A program made the position numbers and the translations under genes. This document shows positions 616 through 32,594 of a stretch of 33,982 bases of DNA, piece after piece. The notes under the pieces were generated by a model that was not told where the DNA came from, searched no databases, and was given only the letters and a program-made list of their open reading frames with translations. Numbering within the stretch: position 1 is the first letter of the stretch; each line of letters begins with the position of its first letter. Location: IMG/VR virus record IMGVR_UViG_3300037847_003385, positions 1 through 33,982 of that record. The stretch is one strand, 5' to 3'. Source of the DNA: a virus.

Positions 616-1005
616 ATGCATCTGACCGACACAGAAATTCTCGACAAGCTGGTCGCGGAAATTGCTTTTGTGAGCAAGAACCCTGACAGCCGTGCAGAGA
701 AAACCGCGCATGAATACGCGGCAATGCTTCTCGATTTTGTGCAGCGCCACACAGCAAAGCAGGTTGCTGTTCACAAAAGGGTCATCGGCTTCTGGGGCTC
801 AATGCACAGCCCAACATTCGGCACCGTTGTCCGGGTACGCAATGACGGGCTGGTCCGCATTGTCTGGGACGGCGACCTGAATTTTGCCGGCTGCTACGAC
901 ATCGAAGATATCGGCCCAAACTGGTTCGACGCCGCAACCAGCAAGCCCGGCGTCTACCTTTACGAAGAACCAGCGGAAGTTGACCAACCCGTTGCCGTCG
1001 CATAA
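616..1005 (+). CDS. Hypothetical phage protein
   Basis: 129 aa, start ATG with GGGAG twelve to eight bases upstream. No family recognised. The N-terminal ~45 residues are helical (EILDKLVAEIAF...EYAAMLLDFVQ). The second half looks like a small beta-barrel (FGTVVRVRNDGLVRIVWDGD then a YDIEDIGPNWFD segment), resembling SH3/Tudor-like nucleic-acid-binding folds only in general character. The stop TAA (1003-1005) abuts a reverse copy of the dispersed regulatory element, so transcription into the recombinase may be controlled there. Confidence 0.75.
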   Translation: MHLTDTEILDKLVAEIAFVSKNPDSRAEKTAHEYAAMLLDFVQRHTAKQVAVHKRVIGFWGSMHSPTFGTVVRVRNDGLVRIVWDGDLNFAGCYDIEDIGPNWFDAATSKPGVYLYEEPAEVDQPVAVA

Positions 1006-1006
1006 T

Positions 1007-1025
1007 GTATACAACTACCAAACGT
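1007..1025 (-). promoter_or_regulatory. Dispersed element copy 2 (reverse orientation)
   Basis: On the minus strand it reads ACGTTTGGTAGTTGTATAC, matching ACGTCTGGTNNTTGTACAA at most positions. It fills the 56-bp gap between the 129-aa gene and the recombinase start at 1062, which argues against the longer in-frame recombinase start at 1005. Confidence 0.55.
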
Positions 1026-1061
1026 AACAGCAACGAACTAGATACAGTGTGGAGGGATAAC

Positions 1062-1844
1062 ATGCTGACAGAAACCAGACCAGACCACGGCGTTCCCCAT
1101 GAGGGCAGCTATGCTGCCTTCGTCCGGGTGTCTACCGACTTACAGGACAACGCCAATCAGGAGCATGGCATCAAGGCGTTCCTGAACGGCGGTGACCATA
1201 AGGTCAAATGGTTCCGCGAGGAGGGCGTGTCGTCCGGCAAGGACTGGCACCAGCGCCAGACTTTGCATGACTGCCTGAACTATTGCCGCAAGACCGGCGC
1301 GACCATGCTGATCTATACGCTGGACCGTATGAGCCGGCGCTTGTGGGAGACCCTGCGCTTCCTGGAGCAAGAGATCGACAACGGAAAGATCAAGCTGGTG
1401 GTCGTGGATGATCCGCACATGGATGAAACCACCATCACGCTCCGCGCCGCTGTCGCGCAGATTGAGCGCAAGCGCATTCAGACCCGCACCAAACAGGCGC
1501 TGCGCCGCATCAAGGACGAGATTGATGAGAAGGGTGAGTACACCACCAAAGAGGGCAGGGTGATCACCAAGCTCGGCTACCATGAAAACCTTGAGGTCGC
1601 CGGCATGAAAGGCAATGAGCGCAATACCGAGCTGGCCGACGGCCGGGCCGAGCAAATCTGGCCGGTCATCAAGATGTTCCGCGACAGTGGTTTGAGCTAC
1701 CGCGAGATCGCCCGTCGCCTGAACGATATGAATCAGCCTACGCCTACAGCAATGCGGACGCCCGACATCAGTCGGCAAACCGAATGGTACGCCAGCTCGG
1801 TCCGCAATTACGTTATCCGTATGGAAAAGAAGGGAGCGAAGTAA
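1062..1844 (+). CDS. Serine recombinase (resolvase/integrase family)
   Basis: 260 aa from ATG 1062, chosen over an in-frame ATG at 1005 because GGAGGG (1051-1056) sits five bases upstream and the longer form would code through a regulatory element. The catalytic domain shows R22-V-S24-T in FVRVSTD, with Ser24 as the likely nucleophile that forms the phosphoserine-DNA link, and the D88-R89-M-S91-R92 motif in YTLDRMSRR. A long helix (residues about 130-155, QIERKRIQTRTKQALRR) is the usual E-helix connector. The C-terminal ~80 residues (SGLSYREIARRLNDM, then W..SSVRNYVIR) match the start of the Recombinase DNA-binding domain. It is longer than invertases/resolvases (~190 aa) and much shorter than large serine integrases (450+ aa), lacking the zinc-ribbon/coiled-coil. 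It could integrate the phage, resolve multimers of a plasmid-like prophage, or invert DNA. No att or res site is evident. Confidence 0.9.
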   Translation: MLTETRPDHGVPHEGSYAAFVRVSTDLQDNANQEHGIKAFLNGGDHKVKWFREEGVSSGKDWHQRQTLHDCLNYCRKTGATMLIYTLDRMSRRLWETLRFLEQEIDNGKIKLVVVDDPHMDETTITLRAAVAQIERKRIQTRTKQALRRIKDEIDEKGEYTTKEGRVITKLGYHENLEVAGMKGNERNTELADGRAEQIWPVIKMFRDSGLSYREIARRLNDMNQPTPTAMRTPDISRQTEWYASSVRNYVIRMEKKGAK

Positions 1845-2341
1845 TGACAAAAGTTGACCAAATAGAATGGCACGATGTTCTTATTAACCCGCCGATGGGG
1901 CCTCCGGAGGATGTTGTCGAAGCCGCCTTGTTTAAGGCCTATGCCAAGGAATTATTTATCCGGGAGATGGTGGTCTACAATCATCGGCAAACTAGGATGA
2001 AGACCAAAGCACAAAGATATTTTAATTCGACGCCAAGCAGAAACGCGCTGGCCCGTGTCCTTTGCCTCGCGACATATGTCAACTCACCTTACACCAAAAC
2101 TGAGATTGCAGAGCAACTTCATGTCTCTCGCCAGACAGCCCATGACCTGGTCGAGGAGTGCCTTGCAGAAGGCTGGGCCGAGGAATGTGAGTGCTGCGCA
2201 AAGCACTACAAGGCAAGCCCTAGCTTAATTGAGGCTGGTGAAGCCTATGCCAAATTTAATTTCGACACGGTGAATAATTGCAGTGCAATCTATGCCTTTC
2301 AGGCGCTGGCATCCTATCAAAAGCTGCGTCAAGCCACTTGA
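1844..2341 (+). CDS. Winged-helix DNA-binding protein
   Basis: 165 aa from ATG 1844, which overlaps the recombinase stop by one base (TAATG) and has AGGGAG (1831-1836) upstream; an in-frame ATG at 1784 lies inside the recombinase gene. A MarR/ArsR-like winged helix-turn-helix is visible at about residues 70-120 (YTKTEIAEQLHVSRQTAHDL, followed by an EGWAEEC wing). The rest, including the C-terminal third, is not recognised. Four cysteines cluster after the HTH (CLAEGWAEECECC), possibly a metal site. The gene is richer in A+T than its neighbours, a hint of separate acquisition. Coupling to the recombinase suggests a regulator or directionality factor; this is inference. Confidence 0.82.
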   Translation: MTKVDQIEWHDVLINPPMGPPEDVVEAALFKAYAKELFIREMVVYNHRQTRMKTKAQRYFNSTPSRNALARVLCLATYVNSPYTKTEIAEQLHVSRQTAHDLVEECLAEGWAEECECCAKHYKASPSLIEAGEAYAKFNFDTVNNCSAIYAFQALASYQKLRQAT

Positions 2342-2392
2342 CATTCACAGAGGTGAACAAACCGCATATGTATTGTAGACGGAGCAATTAGG

Positions 2393-2758
2393 ATGAAACT
2401 GACCCGGAAACAAAAGCTGCAACTCAGTCCGACGGCTAGAGCCATACGCGGCGGCATGATGCGTTTCAAGCGCCGGCTTGATATCCCAATGTTTCATGCA
2501 GACCACATTGGCCAGGCTGAACAGATACTGAGTGACACGGTGGATGAGCTGAAGAGGCTCAAGCAATCGAACAGCCTGCGTGATGCGGATCGTCTTATTT
2601 ATGCTCAAGGGGCGTTGCTTGCTGCCAACAAGCGGCTGGCCGTTATGGCACCAAGTGACCCCCGCCAGCGCGGCGCTGAACACATAGTTTATGACCCTGA
2701 CCTGAAAGACGAGCGGGGCATTCTGGAAGTGTCGAAGCTGGAGAAGAACATGACGTGA
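2393..2758 (+). CDS. Hypothetical basic phage protein
   Basis: 121 aa, start ATG with GGAG (2381-2384) eight bases upstream. No family recognised. The N-terminal ~30 residues are strongly basic (KLTRKQKLQL and RFKRRLD), the middle is helical (HIGQAEQILSDTVDELKRLKQ), and a second helix follows (DRLIYAQGALLAANKRLAVM). A word shared with the divergent control region (2369-2381) precedes it, so it may have its own promoter. Its basic, helical make-up fits a small DNA-associated protein. Confidence 0.7.
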   Translation: MKLTRKQKLQLSPTARAIRGGMMRFKRRLDIPMFHADHIGQAEQILSDTVDELKRLKQSNSLRDADRLIYAQGALLAANKRLAVMAPSDPRQRGAEHIVYDPDLKDERGILEVSKLEKNMT

Positions 2759-2893
2759 CCTTTGGTGTTACTACCAGACGTTAGGTCGGGTACGAACATC
2801 ATAGGATATGTCTAGTGTTAACATCAGACCTACCCGCTGGTATCTGTTGAAAGCGGTCTGGTCGTTGTACAAAACGAAAGGGAATGAAAACAG
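2759..2893. promoter_or_regulatory. Second control region, upstream of the recombination genes
   Basis: A 135-bp gene-free stretch. It holds a partial reverse copy of the dispersed element (2769-2783; minus strand ACGTCTGGTAGTAAC), a 20-bp imperfect palindrome centred on TGTTAACA (2810-2829) and a forward copy of the element (2853-2873). TTGAAA (2847-2852) and TACAAA (2868-2873) flank the forward copy like a -35/-10 pair with a short 15-bp spacer, which would place the element in the operator position. Promoter assignment is uncertain, but the density of symmetric sites marks this as regulatory. Confidence 0.55.
2853..2873 (+). promoter_or_regulatory. Dispersed element copy 4
   Basis: Core reads GGTCTGGTCGTTGTACAAA. 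It lies 21-41 bp before the ATG of the small membrane protein gene, too close to that start to act as a -35 box itself; an operator or protein-binding role is more likely. Confidence 0.6.
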
Positions 2894-3169
2894 ATGTCTA
2901 AGTCGCGTTTGTCGCATAATGTATATTCTCCCAGTAAATACAGACACTTAGGACAGATAGACCTGACAGTACTGACAGCACAGTCTGTACAGGACAGTGT
3001 AAACAGAGCCACCCTGTTTGCGGTTTTTCAACGTAACATCTGGTCATTGATCAAGGCGGTAGGCATCGGCCTACTGATCGCCCTGGTGCTTGTCGAAATC
3101 TGGGCGCTCTTCTGGTTCCTCTGTGCGCTGGATGATGTTTGCTACGCAGCGAATACAGGGGGGCTGTGA
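2894..3169 (+). CDS. Small predicted membrane protein
   Basis: 91 aa, start ATG with AGGGA about ten bases upstream; an ATG at 2884 is closed after five codons. Residues about 52-77 form one hydrophobic span (IKAVGIGLLIALVLVEIWAL then FWFLC), with a polar N-terminus. No family recognised. The stop overlaps the exonuclease start (TGATG at 3167-3171), so the two are translationally coupled. Its first third is encoded by an unusual run of ACAG repeats (2953-3006), so the DNA may be doubly constrained. It could be an exclusion or host-interaction protein; function unknown. Confidence 0.65.
   Translation: MSKSRLSHNVYSPSKYRHLGQIDLTVLTAQSVQDSVNRATLFAVFQRNIWSLIKAVGIGLLIALVLVEIWALFWFLCALDDVCYAANTGGL
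2953..3006 (+). repeat. Cluster of seven ACAG repeats
   Basis: ACAG occurs at 2953, 2966, 2975, 2980, 2989, 2994 and 3003, i.e. seven times in 54 bp, partly as heptads (TGACAGT, TGACAGC, GGACAGT) and around the palindrome CTGTACAG (2985-2992). The later spacings alternate about 5 and 9 bp. RHH-family repressors often bind arrays of short heptads, so this may be a protein-binding array inside the gene. It could also be chance within a Q/S/T-rich coding segment. Confidence 0.4.
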
Positions 3170-4110
3170 TGCCAAAGCTGACAAAAACTGGGGAAGAGAT
3201 CGGCAGCTCGAACGGCCCGACGATCGTGCTTCACAAAAATCGGTATGGCGGCACCCGGCAGAAAGAGCTGGAGAAAACCAAGATGGCGCTGCGCGGCGAG
3301 GACTTGCCGGCAGACACGATGAACATCGAAGCCAAGCTGCGGGGGAATTTGATGGAGGGCGGTGTCGCTGACTTCGCGCTGGCTTTGCTACGCCGCATGG
3401 TCCCCGGCTCTACGTCCATAGAAATGTGGGAACCAAAAGAGCCGGCGCGTTACCTCAAGCATAGGATCGCCAGCTCTATAGATCGGATCATAGAGATCAA
3501 AGGTGAGGGCGGTGAGCTGGTTCTGCACTGGCTGGACAAGGAGTTTGTTCTTTCCGGCACCGGCATCTGCGAGATCAAGACGGATGCGTATCATGACGGC
3601 CGGCCGAAACCGGAGTGGGTCATTCAGGTCCAGCACCAGATGGTCTGCGCCGAACTGGACTGGGCGATCATTGCCTGTTTTGACCAGCATTTCAAAATGC
3701 ACTTCTATCCCGTGCTGCGTGACCAGGCGCTGATCGATGTCATGCTGAAAGCCTATGCCGAGTTTTGGCATCTTGTGGACACTGACGGTGACTACCCTCC
3801 CATCGAAGGTTCCGAGCCTGACAAGCTGGTGGACATCAGCGAGATGCTGCCGAAAACAAATCATGATTTGCAGGCAATGTGTACGGACTATCTCCGGGCT
3901 GCGGCTGAAGCAACGTCCTGGGAGAAGACCCGCAAGCAGTTACGCGAGGGCATCATCTTTGTTCTGGATTCCATGCAAGTCGAACACGCCAAGATGCCGG
4001 GCTTCATCATCAAGTCAAAGACGGTGACCAAGCCACGGCGCAAGTCAGTTGAAACTGGAGAAACCTACGAGAGCATCAGCTTCTCGGTGAAGGAAACGAA
4101 TGATGAGTGA
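3169..4110 (+). CDS. YqaJ-type viral recombinase/exonuclease (PD-(D/E)XK)
   Basis: 313 aa from ATG 3169, preceded by AGGGGG and overlapping the previous stop; a longer in-frame ATG at 3139 lies within the membrane protein gene. The PD-(D/E)XK nuclease signature can be traced: Glu63 in RGNLMEGG, Asp105 in SSIDRI, then Glu135-x-Lys137 in GICEIKTD, and a Gln-rich helix (VIQVQHQMVCAELDW). This order matches lambda-exonuclease/YqaJ proteins, which chew one strand of double-stranded DNA ends to leave 3' tails for annealing. The RecT-like gene two positions downstream is the expected partner. The last ~70 residues (after about 245) are family-variable. It probably serves replication, concatemer formation or repair. 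Confidence 0.85.
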   Translation: MPKLTKTGEEIGSSNGPTIVLHKNRYGGTRQKELEKTKMALRGEDLPADTMNIEAKLRGNLMEGGVADFALALLRRMVPGSTSIEMWEPKEPARYLKHRIASSIDRIIEIKGEGGELVLHWLDKEFVLSGTGICEIKTDAYHDGRPKPEWVIQVQHQMVCAELDWAIIACFDQHFKMHFYPVLRDQALIDVMLKAYAEFWHLVDTDGDYPPIEGSEPDKLVDISEMLPKTNHDLQAMCTDYLRAAAEATSWEKTRKQLREGIIFVLDSMQVEHAKMPGFIIKSKTVTKPRRKSVETGETYESISFSVKETNDE

Positions 4111-4324
4111 ATACGTTATCGAAGACGACATTCCTGTGCCTATCAGAGGCAACAGTCGCTGGCATTTCGTAAAACAAATGAAAGCAGGGCAGAGCTTTGT
4201 TCTTTTGAAAAAAGACCACGGTGCGGTCAGAGCCTACGCGCACAGGCAACGTCTTAAAATTGCGTCTCGGTCAATATCAGACAGTGAACTGAGAGTATGG
4301 AAACTGGAGATGAATGATGAATGA
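4103..4324 (+). CDS. Small phage protein, DUF7303-like
   Basis: 73 aa from ATG 4103 (an adjacent in-frame ATG at 4100 is equally possible); AAGGAA lies about ten bases upstream and the start overlaps the exonuclease stop. The layout, a short acidic start, FVKQMKAGQSFVL, then a basic segment and a final RVWKLE, resembles a widespread family of tiny phage proteins (DUF7303) of unknown function found beside recombination and replication genes. It overlaps the RecT-like gene by 11 bp. Confidence 0.7.
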   Translation: MSEYVIEDDIPVPIRGNSRWHFVKQMKAGQSFVLLKKDHGAVRAYAHRQRLKIASRSISDSELRVWKLEMNDE

Positions 4325-5270
4325 TAAGAAACTAACGGTCCTTGAACCGACCAACCTCACCGAGGCAATGGACTTTGCCAAGGTGATTGCACAGTCGCCG
4401 ATGGTGCCGGAAGCCTATCGCGGCAAACCGGCCAATGTCCTGGTCGCTGTCCAGTGGGGTTATGAGTTGGGCCTCGCACCGATGCAAGCCTTGCAGAACA
4501 TCTCCGTCATCAATGGCAAGCCATCGATCTGGGGTGACAGCATGCTGGCACTGGTCAAAGCGCATCCGGCCTTTCGCGGCATCAAGGAATACATGGACGG
4601 GGAGGTTGCGGTCTGCATAGTTAAACGTGCGCTGCCCAACGGCGAGATTGAAGAAACTAAGAAGACCTTTTCGATGGCCGAGGCAAAGCATGCCAAGCTG
4701 ACCGGCAAGGCTGGTGCCTGGCAGAACTATCCGAACCGGATGTTGCAGCTACGGGCGAGGGGCTTTGCCCTGCGTGATAGCTTTCCCGATGCCATCAAGG
4801 GGCTGATCACTGTCGAAGAGGCCCGTGACTACGATGCCCCCGAAAAACGTCCTCCTGTAAAGCCCGTACAAGCCCCGTCCGTATCGTCTGAGGGTGATCC
4901 TGTGCAAAACATACTAGAGGCCGTCAGTGAAGCTGAGAGCGCCAGCAATGAGGAGGTCGTTCTGCCGGCATTTATTTTGAACACACCGACCGGCAAAACG
5001 GAAACATATGGGTCACAGGATGAGTGGGCAACCAGCTACGCAGACCTGATGCTGAAGACGCGGACCTATTCTGATTGGACGCCCGAAGATCGGCGCACAA
5101 AATTGAAAGAGCTTGAAGAGTGCAACGCCGATGTCCTGGGTGAGATCGATGAAGCCTTGGCCACCGAGCTGAAGGACAAGCGGATCGCCTACAACAAGCA
5201 GTTGTCTATGGAAGCAAAGGAGGGTGACGATGAAGCACGGTCTTACGCTCAAACAAAAAGCGGTGTTTGA
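4314..5270 (+). CDS. recT: RecT-family single-strand annealing protein
   Basis: 318 aa. Two tandem ATGs (4314, 4317) follow TGGAG (4305-4309). The conserved RecT core is clear: residues about 45-85 (VQWGYELGLAPMQAL, ISVINGKPSIWGDSML) and 135-165 (GAWQNYPNRMLQLRARGFAL then RDSFPD), the segments that form the DNA-binding surface in this family. It anneals complementary single strands, here presumably the tails made by the YqaJ-type exonuclease at 3169. The C-terminal ~140 residues are acidic and variable (about 175-318), as usual for RecT proteins, where the tail contacts host SSB or other partners. Its presence in place of a phage DNA polymerase system points to recombination-assisted replication by host enzymes. 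Confidence 0.92.
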   Translation: MMNDKKLTVLEPTNLTEAMDFAKVIAQSPMVPEAYRGKPANVLVAVQWGYELGLAPMQALQNISVINGKPSIWGDSMLALVKAHPAFRGIKEYMDGEVAVCIVKRALPNGEIEETKKTFSMAEAKHAKLTGKAGAWQNYPNRMLQLRARGFALRDSFPDAIKGLITVEEARDYDAPEKRPPVKPVQAPSVSSEGDPVQNILEAVSEAESASNEEVVLPAFILNTPTGKTETYGSQDEWATSYADLMLKTRTYSDWTPEDRRTKLKELEECNADVLGEIDEALATELKDKRIAYNKQLSMEAKEGDDEARSYAQTKSGV

Positions 5271-22734: not shown

Positions 22735-22754
22735 GGGGCCGGCGAACCGGCCCC
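22735..22754 (-). terminator. GC-rich hairpin between decoration and tail genes
   Basis: A perfect 8-bp stem (GGGGCCGG/CCGGCCCC) with a four-base loop that reads TTCG on the minus strand, a very stable RNA tetraloop. No U-run follows, so it is more likely an attenuator or RNA-processing/stability element that sets a step-down between highly expressed capsid genes and tail genes than a full terminator. Confidence 0.5.
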
Positions 22755-23055: not shown

Positions 23056-23907
23056 CTAGCTTTCGTCCATGACGACATCAACGATGCCATCGGTGTCGAT
23101 TGCAACTGCGCCCATTGACAACATTGCTGTTACCAGGAATGAGGTCTTTTCTGGGACGTAATTGATTTCTGTTTTCGGTGCGATACCGACAGCCACACCC
23201 AAGGCGCTGCGGTGGAACGCAAAGCCGGTGCGGTCGTTGGTGGACAGCGGCAGGCCGCCCTCATCACGGTCTCCAATAATATGGAACTGGAACCCGGTCA
23301 TCGATGTCACCTGGCCGGTAACAAGATGCTTGAGTTGGGCAAAATCTGCCGAAACTGCACGCTCATCGCCCAGCAATCCAGCCAGGTTGTTGGCGTGGAT
23401 TACAAAGTGACGATCCGTTGCCGGTACGTTTTTCGCATCCAGCGCCTTCTTGGCCGCGATGATCTTTCCCATGTTCAGGTTTGATGCGGTAGCCGAGCCA
23501 CTGGTGACCACGGTCTTAGCGACAGTAGAGCCAGCAGATGCAGCATTGAGGGCATCAATTATGATCTGGTCCTCACGGCGGCCAATGGCGTTACCCACGA
23601 CCTGTGCCAGCTCCTGACGCTCGTCAAAGTTGACTTTGGCCTGATTGAACACGTCCGAATATTCAGCGGCCACAAAATCAGTAAGCGTACAGCTTACCTG
23701 AGAAAATGCAGCGTTGATCGGCACGACATCGGTAGCAGGGGTGCGCTCAGACGCCTGACCCTTACCGACCTTCGGGAACTTGACGGTATCACCGACAACC
23801 CCGGTGCGCGTCCGCGCAGCTCCGCGAAGCACGGCAGCGGCTTGGTAAGCCTGATGCACCTCTGCTTCAAAAAGCTGAACAAACGCTGGAGAGAGATTTG
23901 TTGACAT
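23056..23907 (-). CDS. Major capsid protein
   Basis: 283 aa from ATG 23907, with GGAG eight bases upstream; an ORF start at 23934 is not supported by a ribosome site. The N-terminal segment is the expected helix (PAFVQLFEAEVHQAYQ), followed by VGDTVKFPKVGKGQASERTP and the FVAAEYSDVFNQAKVNFDER and GNAIGRREDQIIIDAL spine-helix region of T7-like HK97-fold capsid proteins. It assembles with the scaffold encoded just before it. It is preceded by its own terminator, promoter-like region and folded leader, consistent with separate high-level control. Confidence 0.9.
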   Translation of the reverse strand: MSTNLSPAFVQLFEAEVHQAYQAAAVLRGAARTRTGVVGDTVKFPKVGKGQASERTPATDVVPINAAFSQVSCTLTDFVAAEYSDVFNQAKVNFDERQELAQVVGNAIGRREDQIIIDALNAASAGSTVAKTVVTSGSATASNLNMGKIIAAKKALDAKNVPATDRHFVIHANNLAGLLGDERAVSADFAQLKHLVTGQVTSMTGFQFHIIGDRDEGGLPLSTNDRTGFAFHRSALGVAVGIAPKTEINYVPEKTSFLVTAMLSMGAVAIDTDGIVDVVMDES

Positions 23908-24056
23908 GACTGTCACTCCATTGATTGAACACACAAGATTTTCGCCTTGCGGGTTGTCGGGAGTGATCCCGGCCCTGGCTTACGCGAACGTCGCGCACGG
24001 TCTATTCCTAGACGCCAGACCGGCCCTTTCGGGTTATCAGTCAATTATTCTATGAC
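23908..24056 (-). ncRNA. Folded 5' leader of the capsid mRNA (candidate cis-regulatory RNA)
   Basis: In a gene-free 150-bp stretch, a three-way junction can be drawn by hand. Closing stem: 23971-23979 with 24014-24025 (CTGGC/GCCAG plus GGCC/GGCC, 3-base bulge). Hairpins inside: CGCGA/TCGCG (23983-23995) and GTCTA/TAGAC (24000-24013), the latter with a GGAA tetraloop on the transcript. A further hairpin, CGGGA/TCCCG, is at 23958-23971. Near-identical words AACCCGAAAGG and AACCCGCAAGG flank the fold (24035-24025 and 23955-23945). An alternative pairing (CGGTCT/AGACCG, 23998-24022) competes with the first. Function unknown; it could set capsid translation or mRNA stability. Confidence 0.45.
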
Positions 24057-24080
24057 ACACAACCTGGAGGTTGTAAATAC
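24045..24080 (-). promoter_or_regulatory. Possible capsid-operon promoter overlapped by an iteron-like element
   Basis: On the minus strand TTTACA (24077-24072) and TAGAAT (24052-24047) resemble sigma70 boxes, though the 19-bp spacer is long. Over the -35 side lies ACAACCTGGAGGTTGTA (24059-24075), a palindrome (ACAACCT/AGGTTGT) matching the initiator iterons at 15 of 20 positions (24057-24076). Its position just after a terminator and before the capsid leader supports a regulated promoter. Confidence 0.5.
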
Positions 24081-24186: not shown

Positions 24187-25017
24187 TTAGTTTCCGGCGG
24201 CGTAGCGTCTCTCGAAAAGAGTTTCGACGTTGGCGCGATACCAGGTCGGATCGCTGGCGCGGGGGTCTTTCATAAGCTCCTGGACCTTGGCATCAAAGTC
24301 TTCTTTGCTCTCACCAGCCTCGGCCACGTCATTGACCGGCATCTTGGCCAAGTCACCTGTCATGGCGCGGACCTTCTGCATCAGTATCTGACCCGTGGCA
24401 GTGCCACCCCAGACATTCAGCTCCTGGCGCATCTCTTCTGAAATGATGCCCCGACGCAGCAAGCCATCGGCCCAGCCGATATTTGACTTGATGATAGCCT
24501 CAGCTTGCGGACCTAATGCTTCCATTTCGTTCTGAACATTGGTCTGCATTTCAACGCCGGCCTCACCAGCAATGCTGGTTATAGTTTCTGCCAGCTCGGA
24601 GAACGCCGCCTGGTTGATGCCGTATTTCTGCGCCCATTCGCGGTAGCTACTGACGACCGGGTCATCAGCTTCATAGCCGGCCTCGGTCAGCGCGGTCATA
24701 TCATACTCGCCATTCTCTGGCGCTTTGTGTTCGCCGTGATGAAACTTTTGCTCCAGCTCCTTCTGGCTTTTGGCCATGCCTTCTAGGTCAGGGCCGTCCT
24801 TTTCATCCCAGTGCTTACTGGGGAACCATTCGGGACGTTCATAGATGATGTCCTCATCATCATCACCGGCGGCTTCTTGCTCCGCGCCTTCAAGGTGCGG
24901 CATCGCTTCGGGTTCTTGGTTGGCCTCTTCTTCGAGCGTCACGCTGGCCATCAAACCGTCAGGAGCCGGGCTTTCAACCGGTTGTTCCTGGGGCTGCTGG
25001 TTCTCATCTTGGCTCAT
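24187..25017 (-). CDS. Scaffolding protein (T7 gp9-like)
   Basis: 276 aa, strongly acidic at the N-terminus (EQEAAGDDDEDIIYE) with the conserved start of the ordered part (RPEWFPSKHWDEKDGPDLEG, KSQKELEQKF). The remainder is helical. Such proteins guide capsid assembly and leave before DNA enters. Its place between portal and capsid genes fits. The 5' end overlaps the Bbp19-like gene by 14 bp. Confidence 0.88.
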   Translation of the reverse strand: MSQDENQQPQEQPVESPAPDGLMASVTLEEEANQEPEAMPHLEGAEQEAAGDDDEDIIYERPEWFPSKHWDEKDGPDLEGMAKSQKELEQKFHHGEHKAPENGEYDMTALTEAGYEADDPVVSSYREWAQKYGINQAAFSELAETITSIAGEAGVEMQTNVQNEMEALGPQAEAIIKSNIGWADGLLRRGIISEEMRQELNVWGGTATGQILMQKVRAMTGDLAKMPVNDVAEAGESKEDFDAKVQELMKDPRASDPTWYRANVETLFERRYAAGN

Positions 25018-30464: not shown

Positions 30465-31373
30465 TGCTGTCTCCCGGCTCTGCTTTCTAGATATGAAATA
30501 CTGCAAGGACGTTGGTGGCTGCTTGTTGTGGCGCACCAGCCAGTCCAGCATGCGTTCGCTGTCTGCCGCAAAGCTCTCGACTGTGTAGCCTAGTGCCAAG
30601 AGCTGTGCTGCCAGTTCCTCTTGCCTGAGATCGTGCCTGAACCTGCTGCCCCATCGCTGCGCGACCGCGTGTGCGTATGTCATGCAGAGCTTCCTACATT
30701 CACTTTCTTTAATCTCTTTACATCTATTGTTAAGATGTAGGTTAGGTACAACCTGGGTGTTGTATTCTCGTACAACCTGGGTGTTGTACTGTCTCTCCTC
30801 TTGCGACAACCTGGGTGTTGTACGACTGCGATCTTTCAGTGCGCTGGTCGTCTGCTTGATGAGGGCATTTACATCCTTCTGTCGCTGCTTTGACTGCTGT
30901 CCTTTGGCCCCTTTTGCGGCCTCTTCGATGGTGCTTGCGGCGGTCTCTTGTTCTTCTTCCTCGGTCTTGTGCAGTCGTGCCGCGGCGGCTTCCACGTCTT
31001 TCAGGGACTGTGTCGGGTCATAGATCACGCGCCAGACTGCGCCCTTCTTTCCGTATGGGCGTTTGCTGTTTTCGTTCCTGACCTTCTCCAGGTATCCGAG
31101 CTCGACCAGCTTTCTGAAGTGCCTGGACACGGCTTGCTGTGACATCTCCAGGTCACGGGCGATGGTTCGTTGGTTCACCCAAAATGTGCCAGTGTATGCG
31201 GATGCATGGGCGCAGGCGTAGCATAGGATCACCATTGCCATCGGGAAGCGTGTGAAGCTGGTGTCTCTGGTGGCTCTGCCGGGTATCCAGGCTCCGGCAC
31301 CGGGCGACTGTCCGTCACCGCGTCCGTCTGGTGCGTCTCGCACTGGATCGGGTGTGAGCTTAGACTTCTGCAT
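30462..31373 (-). CDS. Replication initiator with winged-helix domain
   Basis: 303 aa from ATG 31373, GGAGG six bases upstream; the start overlaps the preceding stop. A winged HTH lies at about residues 64-100 (NQRTIARDLEMSQQAVSRHF, then a LGYLEKV wing). A charged, Glu/Ala-rich linker follows (about 124-180), then a repeat-encoded stretch (YNTQVV twice, 196-209) and a C-terminal domain (about 220-303). Phage initiators of the lambda-O type have this order (N-terminal HTH, linker, partner-binding C-terminus) and carry the origin inside the gene. Three iterons sit at 30746-30823, matching this idea. It may recruit host helicase directly. The specific partner is unknown. Confidence 0.75.
   Translation of the reverse strand: MQKSKLTPDPVRDAPDGRGDGQSPGAGAWIPGRATRDTSFTRFPMAMVILCYACAHASAYTGTFWVNQRTIARDLEMSQQAVSRHFRKLVELGYLEKVRNENSKRPYGKKGAVWRVIYDPTQSLKDVEAAAARLHKTEEEEQETAASTIEEAAKGAKGQQSKQRQKDVNALIKQTTSALKDRSRTTPRLSQEERQYNTQVVREYNTQVVPNLHLNNRCKEIKESECRKLCMTYAHAVAQRWGSRFRHDLRQEELAAQLLALGYTVESFAADSERMLDWLVRHNKQPPTSLQYFISRKQSRETA
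30746..30823. repeat. Three iterons, candidate replication origin
   Basis: Copies at 30746-30765, 30770-30789 and 30804-30823. The middle one is GTACAACCTGGGTGTTGTAC, a perfect 7-bp inverted repeat around CTGGGT; the others differ at one or two end bases. Start-to-start spacings are 24 and 34 bp. The third copy lies in a different reading frame from the first two, so the conserved unit is the DNA, not the peptide. A comparatively A+T-rich stretch (30700-30745, including AATCTCTTTACATCTATTG) is adjacent, as at many origins. Confidence 0.72.
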
Positions 31374-31375
31374 CG
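31350..31375. repeat. Direct repeat at the initiator start (pairs with 31810-31835)
   Basis: 26-bp window matching 31810-31835 at 22 positions, including AGCTTA and CTTCTGCATCG. It holds the stop of one gene and the start of the next in both places; both downstream proteins begin MQKSKLTP. Confidence 0.75.
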
Positions 31376-31833
31376 CCGGCCTCCCACCTGAATTTCAGTT
31401 GGCCGTAGATCGGTTGCCAATCTCTGTTCCCGCCGCGCTGCGTCCAGCGGTCGTGCGGTTTCACTTCACCGACAATCTTCCAGCCAGCTCCTTTGAGGGA
31501 TGCGCCGCTCTCTTCTTGTAGCGTGTAGGTCACCATCCTTGTGCCGCCCATTTGCTGCCAAATGCGCCAACAGCGTCCGTAAAGAAACGAACAGGCATTG
31601 CGCGGCGCATGATCTCTGACACACACACGGTTCACTTCAGCGGTCCAGCCGTCATCAAGTATGGCAGAAACGGGTCTGCCGACGATGGCAACGCCGACAA
31701 TCTCGTTGTTAAACAGAGCGCCGATAGAAAACTTACCGCCTTGTGTGGGCTTGTTATGCCGGTGGAAGTTGGCAACAAACTCGTTAGCCTCGCGCAACGA
31801 TATCGGCATGGGCGTCAGCTTACTCTTCTGCAT
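31360..31833 (-). CDS. XF1762-like protein (GNAT-type fold)
   Basis: 157 aa from ATG 31833. It follows the XF1762 family: PISLREANEFVANFHRHNKP, then IGALFNNEIVGVAIVGRPVS, DDGWTAEVNRVCVRDHAPRN and the terminal ASLKGAGWKIVGEVKPHD. The layout resembles a GNAT acetyltransferase with the R/N-ACS-LYG segment (NACSFLYGRCWRIWQ) as cofactor helix. Function unproven; members are common in phages. The gene is flanked by the 26-bp direct repeats and its first residues MQKSKLTP equal those of the initiator, which suggests insertion or duplication at this junction. Confidence 0.78.
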   Translation of the reverse strand: MQKSKLTPMPISLREANEFVANFHRHNKPTQGGKFSIGALFNNEIVGVAIVGRPVSAILDDGWTAEVNRVCVRDHAPRNACSFLYGRCWRIWQQMGGTRMVTYTLQEESGASLKGAGWKIVGEVKPHDRWTQRGGNRDWQPIYGQLKFRWEAGDAEV

Positions 31834-31835
31834 CG
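31810..31835. repeat. Direct repeat at the XF1762-like gene start (pairs with 31350-31375)
   Basis: Second copy of the stop/start cassette. Upstream methyltransferase-like protein ends DAEE and the XF1762-like protein ends DAEV, each followed by TAA inside the next MQKSK-coding start. Confidence 0.75.
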
Positions 31836-32371
31836 GTGATCCATTCGATGACGGGTGCCGGCAGTGCCAGGCGTGACTTGACGACGTGCAGCCGGTCCCA
31901 AATGAACCAGGCATATGCTGTGGTGCCGGTGCTGGTCTGGTCCTGATCGCCGCGCCAGATCGTCAGGCGGTGGCTGAATACATGGATACGGGCGGGTGGG
32001 TGCTTGCTGAACAGCCTCTGGTAGCGTCCTACGCCCTCCAGGAAGGACAGTCGCAGCAGATAGGCATGCTTGGTGCATCCGAGATGTATGGCGTGGCTGA
32101 TGAAGTTCTCGGCCAGTCTGTATGGCGGGTTGGTGATCAGGTGATCAGCCTGGCGTGTTTGCTCCAGGAGGAAATCGATGCCGGGCGGGCAATATCCGTA
32201 GTCGTTCAGATCGGAACAGATGGTTTCGATGCCTTGCCGGCGGCAGACATTTGCCAGTGCGCCATTGCCGGCGGCTGGTTCCCATATGGTTGGCCCGAAG
32301 GATTCACGGCGCAGCAATGCCCTGGTTGCCTCGGGCGGTGTCGGATAGAAGTCGTCCTTATGTCTTGTCAT
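31820..32371 (-). CDS. DNA adenine methyltransferase-like protein
   Basis: 183 aa from ATG 32371; earlier in-frame residues overlap the zinc-ribbon gene out of frame. The order is DDFYPTPPEATRALLRRE, motif I-like IWEPAAGNGALANV (residues about 27-41), a substrate strand with acidic end (ICSDLNDYG) and motif IV TNPPY (about 79-83), as in N6-adenine methyltransferases. It is short, with no obvious target-recognition domain. It could protect phage DNA from host restriction or mark the origin. Overlaps the zinc-ribbon gene by 14 bp. Confidence 0.82.
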   Translation of the reverse strand: MTRHKDDFYPTPPEATRALLRRESFGPTIWEPAAGNGALANVCRRQGIETICSDLNDYGYCPPGIDFLLEQTRQADHLITNPPYRLAENFISHAIHLGCTKHAYLLRLSFLEGVGRYQRLFSKHPPARIHVFSHRLTIWRGDQDQTSTGTTAYAWFIWDRLHVVKSRLALPAPVIEWITDAEE

Positions 32372-32594
32372 CGATCTCTTCCGGCAGCTCGACGTACCCT
32401 TTGCCTTCGCACACTGGGCATTGTCCGTATCCGGTCGTGATGTCACCGCCTCGGATGTAGTCCGGCACGGTGACCTCGACCTCGCATTCGCCTTGTGCAT
32501 CGCAGTGTTCGCACTCCAGCACCTCGCGCCATTCGCCTGGCACGGTCGAGATGCGAACCCTCCGATCGGGAATGCTGCTAAAGCCTCTAGCCAT
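32358..32594 (-). CDS. Small zinc-ribbon protein
   Basis: 78 aa with two CxxC pairs (CEHCDAQG and CPVCEGKG), each followed by a Gly, as in DnaJ-type zinc knuckles. Between them is a beta-like stretch (VEVTVPDYIRGGDITTGYGQ). It may bind nucleic acid or stabilise a partner protein. Its start overlaps the HNH gene stop by one base (TAATG). Confidence 0.72.
   Translation of the reverse strand: MARGFSSIPDRRVRISTVPGEWREVLECEHCDAQGECEVEVTVPDYIRGGDITTGYGQCPVCEGKGYVELPEEIDDKT

Follow-up and report, generated by a model that had tools for sequence, protein, structure and literature searches.

A conserved, covarying RNA with twin internal loops upstream of phage capsid genes

Results

Genes and signals around the capsid leader

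The stretch of DNA analysed here, called the window throughout, comprises positions 1–33,982 (33,982 nt) of IMG/VR virus record IMGVR_UViG_3300037847_003385 and carries on its minus strand a T7-like head module in the order terminase, portal, small ORF, scaffold, capsid and tail genes. The scaffold (capsid assembly) gene lies at 24187–25017 (minus strand; Pfam PF05396, E 1.8e-16) and the major capsid protein gene at 23056–23907 (minus strand; phrog_3437, E 4.9e-49), and the leader described below lies in the gap that separates the scaffold stop (24187) from the capsid ATG (23907). The program-called capsid ORF begins at a GTG at 23934; the Shine-Dalgarno sequence (GGAG, 23916–23919, minus strand, 8 nt upstream of the ATG) and the homologues put the start at ATG 23907.

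The placement given in a first-pass annotation of this locus holds: the leader lies downstream of a terminator and a promoter and upstream of the capsid ATG. The terminator between the scaffold and capsid genes (24160–24110, minus strand) was read from the sequence as TGGAGGGGG...CCCCCTCCA followed by CCATTTTTG, and a shorter portion of it was detected by a terminator scan. The capsid promoter (24077–24049, minus strand) consists of a −35 sequence TTTACA at 24077–24072, a 17-bp spacer and a weak −10 sequence CATAGA at 24054–24049, with the predicted +1 at 24042. An inverted repeat, ACAACCTCCAGGTTGT, at 24059–24074 lies between the −35 and −10 sequences and is retained as ACAAGCTACAGCTTGT or ACAAGATGGGTCTTGT in relatives; it looks like an operator for a late-promoter repressor. 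None of the window ORFs scanned was recognised as a phage RNA polymerase, and host RNA polymerase therefore probably transcribes the leader.

Elsewhere in the window, a serine recombinase and RecE/RecT-like genes are found at 1005–5270, and a T7-like podovirus with such genes and no detected phage RNA polymerase is probably a temperate phage. A gene for a Mom-like DNA modification protein adjoins that of a DNA methyltransferase at 31360–32500. Between the small gene that follows the capsid gene and the tail genes lies a hairpin with a UUCG loop on a perfect 8-bp stem of G and C (22735–22754; minus strand GGGGCCGGUUCGCCGGCCCC), which may bound or protect a short capsid mRNA.

Anatomy of the leader RNA

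The 149-nt minus-strand segment 23908–24056 has a folding energy of −56.8 kcal/mol, far from the −41.3 ± 3.8 kcal/mol of dinucleotide shuffles (z −4.07; 0 of 200). Covariance model R1, described below, has its sole strong match in the window here, a 94.1-bit match at 23938–24042 (minus strand) that runs from helix P1 to just beyond a conserved GGCG, and we refer to this structured leader as the twin-loop RNA. The fold supported by covariation spans 24042–23951, all on the minus strand. In element 1 (24042–24018), P1 (GACUG 24042–24038 with CGGUC 24022–24018) encloses P1a alone, the latter reading CCC(GAAA)GGG at 24033–24024; between the two helices lie the loop strand AUAA (24037–24034) and a single opposing C (24023). 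A middle three-way domain (24017–23976) follows, comprising P2 (UGGC/GCCA), P2a, GUCUA(GGAA)UAGAC at 24013–24000, whose loop is a GNRA tetraloop, and P2b, CGCG(ACGUU)CGCG at 23995–23983. Element 2 (23975–23951) is built from P3 (GGG 23975–23973 with CCC 23953–23951), an opposing C (23972), P3a, CGGGA(UCAC)UCCCG at 23971–23958, and the loop strand ACAA (23957–23954). Just 3' of it stands the GGCG (23946–23943), at least 90% conserved in alignment A1 (see below), and a GCG/ACGA motif follows element 2 in 145 of 191 leaders (76%) as against 13% in shuffles. The stem-loops originally proposed for this segment, at least four and one of them with a GGAA tetraloop, are recovered on the minus strand as P1a, P2a, P2b and P3a, and the two near-identical 11-mers noticed at the same time, GATAACCCGAAAGG and GACAACCCGCAAGG, are present and hold the two copies of the internal loop.

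Relatives and distribution

Because a DNA-level search of phage genomes gave no match, relatives were collected by capsid-anchored protein searches, which returned 80 loci with 66–91% identical capsids and then more distant sets, for a total of 221 distinct leaders. Group I, which includes the window, has AYAA-type loops and is described by covariance model R1; group II, which includes the cultured Methylophilales phage MEP301, has CNNA-type loops and is described by model R2. R1 gave no match at E 0.1 to the group II members tested. R2 matches the group I member L031 at the correct place (26 bits, E 0.0005), and the prophage-like locus L427 is matched by both models, which supports common descent of the two groups.

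The RNA is present in many marine, freshwater and soil phages and was found only ahead of the capsid gene. When 2.9 million viral contigs were searched for a 21-mer from the RNA, all 36 exact matches fell 103–115 nt upstream of a capsid ATG. The complete MEP301 genome has a single copy, as does the window, where no second copy was found elsewhere. A Vibrio phage with a 41% identical capsid has a 69-nt gap upstream of its capsid gene and no such leader, and this capsid fold therefore does not depend on the RNA. HTVC010P matches R1 weakly (24 bits, E 0.007), as does HTVC034P (22.8 bits), but the HTVC010P match falls across an annotated ORF and its element 2 parse is unconvincing, and it was left out. 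A convincing pair of elements is absent from the Vibrio phages, EXVC031P, EXVC032P, ZCVPP1 and Dunaliella virus SI2.

Several database records deserve mention in their own right. The locus tags of Pelagibacter phages EXVC031P and EXVC032P (L085 and L419; OQ414635.1 and OQ414636.1) appear to be swapped between the two records. Dunaliella viridis virus SI2 (L083, HQ332136.1) is listed with an algal host, and its capsid is 44% identical to that of the window phage, which suggests that SI2 is a bacteriophage. Two capsid relatives with new twin-loop types lie in long bacterial contigs, L431 in Pelagibius litoralis DSM 21314 (NZ_JAAQPH010000002.1) and L427 in a Hyphomicrobiales MAG (JAIXTP010000026.1), and these loci are probably prophages.

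A sigma70-like −10 box ends 4–8 nt upstream of P1 in 35 of 52 group I representatives and in 23 of 30 from group II. In the window P1 begins about 7 nt past the −10 box, and the capsid mRNA thus probably starts with this RNA. The promoter geometry puts the predicted +1 on the opening base of P1 in group I and group II alike.

Covariation

Covariation among homologous capsid leaders, which the first-pass annotation had proposed as a check along with the folding energy, is strong in both groups. In alignment A1, produced by MAFFT with no fitting to the structure, 90.3% of cells are paired versus 76.3% after shuffling, 27 of the 30 pairs show double-sided changes, and shifting the partner by one to three columns lowers pairing to 33–44%. 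The corresponding figures are 93.2% of cells and 30 of 30 pairs in the model-fitted alignment A3 (64 group I sequences), and 93.4% and 20 of 23 pairs in the group II alignment A5. Run without a supplied structure, RNAalifold arrives at P1, P1a and the 4x1 loop between them for group I and for group II. A tree-aware test (our own script in the style of R-scape, with 20 null alignments) found 17 of 30 pairs significant in group I and no significant pair beyond the structure. For group II the figures are 6 of 23 and one pair beyond the structure, which is probably an extension of P1a. The leader is a real, conserved and covarying structured RNA.

The support is distributed unevenly over the helices. 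P1 has double-sided changes in 5 of 5 pairs and 100% of cells paired in A1, and on the tree four of its five pairs are significant, as are one of three in P1a and four of five in P3a. P3 shows double-sided changes in all three pairs in A1 and is not significant on the tree (best E 0.35, borderline). The three-way junction from which the first-pass annotation took its description survives in part: the P2a and P2b arms covary strongly, but the P2 closing helix, while conserved, barely covaries (one of four pairs in A1, none significant on the tree), and the domain is reduced or absent in some relatives (L037, L048) and is consequently not the core of the RNA. The 9-bp long-range stem thought to enclose the whole does appear in the predicted minimum-energy alternative, but its tested part, CCGGUC/GGCCGG, shows no covariation and 122 of 500 shuffles were as good.

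Two copies of one internal loop

The two elements obey a common grammar. Element 1 reads [P1]-AYAA-[P1a]-C-[P1'], with the long loop strand on the 5' side, and element 2 reads [P3]-C-[P3a]-AYAA-[P3'], with the strands swapped relative to element 1 and the long strand on the 3' side. A two-element grammar parser accepts 88% of 214 distinct leaders and, at equal score, 0.4% of 2140 shuffles; when run without the loop motif it picks mostly AUAA, ACAA, CATA and their relatives unaided, and when loop size is left free each element independently prefers exactly 4x1. As judged by these sequence comparisons, the core of the RNA and the universal feature of the leaders is one 4x1 internal loop used twice, rather than a three-way junction.

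Loop-strand types differ across lineages (AYAA, CNNA, AYAC, NCUAA) and are matched inside one RNA. The loop class of the two elements is concordant wherever it could be classified, with 27 I/I leaders, 19 II/II and none mixed, a further 19 having an unclassified parse. Additional joint changes were read by eye in relatives from bacterial assemblies: ACAC/ACAC in L427, AUAC/ACAC in L432, and ACUAA with CCUAA, each facing a two-base opposite strand, in the Pelagibius locus L431. Independent joint changes of the loops are few, about three or four. That both loops change in step between lineages is as expected if one co-evolving protein binds both; an invariant partner such as a metabolite, RNA polymerase or the ribosome would not be expected to permit it.

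The Shine-Dalgarno sequence and competing folds

The competing alternative helix reported earlier is confirmed. It pairs UCACUCC (23966–23960, minus strand), formed by the P3a loop and 3' strand, over 7 bp with the Shine-Dalgarno region GGAGUGA (23919–23913). Across group I, the P3a loop plus 3' strand is more complementary to the Shine-Dalgarno sequence of the same leader than to that of any other leaders taken for comparison (p 0.0005–0.005 with two redundancy cut-offs), and clade-specific complementary pairs are seen (UCACUCC/GGAGUGA, UUACUCC/GGAGUAA, AUACUCC/GGAGUAU). For six other leader segments in group I, complementarity to the own Shine-Dalgarno sequence was not significant. The P3a strand of group II shows no such trend (p 0.43–0.59), so that an off state of this kind is not universal.

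The predicted minimum-energy fold of the window leader (−58.5 kcal/mol) hides the Shine-Dalgarno sequence, and the conserved fold (−47.3 kcal/mol) lies 11 kcal/mol higher. The conserved-fold prediction frees the Shine-Dalgarno sequence only in part (mean unpaired in group I 0.48 vs 0.28) and, in the window, leaves it largely base-paired to different partners. A conserved fold ranked above the minimum by the energy model is typical of switches with a bound state and is suggestive here, nearest-neighbour energies ignoring tertiary contacts.

Discussion

The reading we favour, at somewhat less than even odds (roughly 0.45), is that the leader acts in cis, from the 5' end of the capsid mRNA, as a protein-responsive translational switch whose conserved fold frees the Shine-Dalgarno sequence; its partner, sign and function we infer. 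Both loops would be bound by a protein of the phage, probably dimeric, for which scaffold or capsid protein is the simplest choice, and binding would hold the conserved fold, in which P3a is closed, the Shine-Dalgarno sequence is released from P3a and the capsid is translated. Without bound protein, in the window's group, the P3a 3' strand would pair with the Shine-Dalgarno sequence and keep translation low. The P1 helix, anchored at the predicted +1, would probably also shield the mRNA 5' end. We judge the sign to be 'on' because the Shine-Dalgarno sequence is freer in the conserved fold. The scaffold protein is a candidate partner. Of the two functions suggested at the outset, a translational control site is favoured by the group I Shine-Dalgarno complementarity and the capsid-only location, and an mRNA-stabilising leader also fits, since P1 starts at the predicted +1. 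A broader proposal, that a widespread RNA family couples capsid translation to an assembly protein, with a scaffold or capsid dimer reading two strand-swapped loops and turning translation on while protein and RNA co-evolve, is one we put forward tentatively, as having a real if minority chance of being right.

In a first alternative the leader would be mainly a 5'-end stabiliser, with P1 burying the first nucleotides and shielding the most-used phage mRNA from decay and no switching taking place. In its favour, P1 opens at the predicted +1 in group I and group II alike, a dedicated promoter downstream of a terminator serves the capsid mRNA, and 5'-terminal stem-loops are described as stabilising E. 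coli mRNAs in work cited in PMC3997798. A stabiliser needs no conserved loop sequence, however, and leaves unexplained both the joint change of the two loops and the presence of element 2 some 70 nt inside the transcript; we consider it unlikely, yet a serious alternative. The same loop evidence that argues for a switch would serve equally for a site of autogenous repression, at which excess capsid or scaffold protein would bind the twin loop and lower translation, and the autoregulation of T4 gp32 and gp43 is a classic precedent (PMC3014915). Against this, element 2 ends 31 nt upstream of the Shine-Dalgarno sequence in the window, so that bound protein would not simply cover it, and the Shine-Dalgarno sequence is freer, not hidden, in the conserved fold. 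We regard such repression as rather less probable.

An antiterminator RNA of the HK022 put kind, which would bind RNA polymerase and let it read a long late operon, would agree with the predicted start at the first base of P1, with the pair of hairpins that carry internal loops, with the roughly 15 kb of late operon downstream and with the lack of a phage RNA polymerase among the window ORFs scanned; it is nevertheless improbable, as the RNA occurs only before the capsid gene and once each in the window and MEP301, downstream terminator-like sites are not enriched, and the loops vary between lineages where a polymerase contact should stay fixed. A metabolite riboswitch with two copies of one aptamer would account for two identical pockets and, in group I, for a possible expression platform, but the pocket sequence varies between lineages while remaining matched within one RNA, there is no Rfam match and no metabolic gene is controlled, which makes this very improbable. 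A packaging RNA like the phi29 pRNA, raised by the three-way junction, was rejected since the RNA can do without its middle domain and is not followed by a separate transcript end, and no tRNA-like or tmRNA structure was found.

A conserved, capsid-only RNA would offer a direct and testable way into how head assembly is controlled post-transcriptionally in phages that are very common in marine, freshwater and soil environments; the balance of capsid to scaffold is usually explained by gene order and promoters. The twin loop, strand-swapped and changing in step at both sites, is an unusual and clean case of one recognition module used twice per RNA, and the cultured phage MEP301 and the probable prophage in the cultured Pelagibius litoralis DSM 21314 are possible study systems. 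The first-pass annotation placed the leader outside known RNA families, and so it proved: Rfam 15 at gathering threshold gave no match for the window or for 20 diverse relative loci, and a relaxed search of the window returned only an unrelated miRNA model at 21 bits. The twin-loop RNA thus adds a family absent from Rfam. A literature search, with most subscription journals outside its reach, found no description of it.

Among known systems, the T4/RB69 gp43 (DNA polymerase) operator is a leader hairpin about 40 nt upstream of the start codon with a UAAC loop and a selected CAAC variant (PMC3014915). It resembles the present RNA as a phage mRNA leader motif, the twin-loop core being A[U/C]AAC, but is a single hairpin loop bound by DNA polymerase, whereas the twin-loop motif consists of two internal loops before a capsid gene, each flanked by covarying helices; none of the ORFs scanned was recognised as a T4-type polymerase. 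The HK022 put RNA acts on RNA polymerase at early promoters (PMC9378689). Compared by description, the two RNAs are of similar size class (about 70 nt for put and 105 nt for the twin-loop RNA), have their start, a predicted one for the twin-loop RNA, at a phage promoter and contain two hairpins with internal loops, and they differ in that the twin-loop RNA is found only before the capsid gene. Stabilisers of the ompA class share with it a paired 5' end whose stem lies within a few nucleotides of the predicted +1, but conserved twin internal loops and Shine-Dalgarno complementarity are foreign to that class.

Glycine and guanidine-II riboswitches carry two copies of one aptamer in one leader and so likewise present one recognition site twice, but the twin-loop copies are strand-swapped and their pocket sequence drifts between lineages rather than being near-invariant. 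The P22 scaffolding protein autoregulates its own gene post-transcriptionally, and we know of no RNA element of the twin-loop kind from that system. P22 differs in acting on the scaffold gene itself; if the switch reading is correct, in both cases an assembly protein would tune the synthesis of an assembly gene after transcription.
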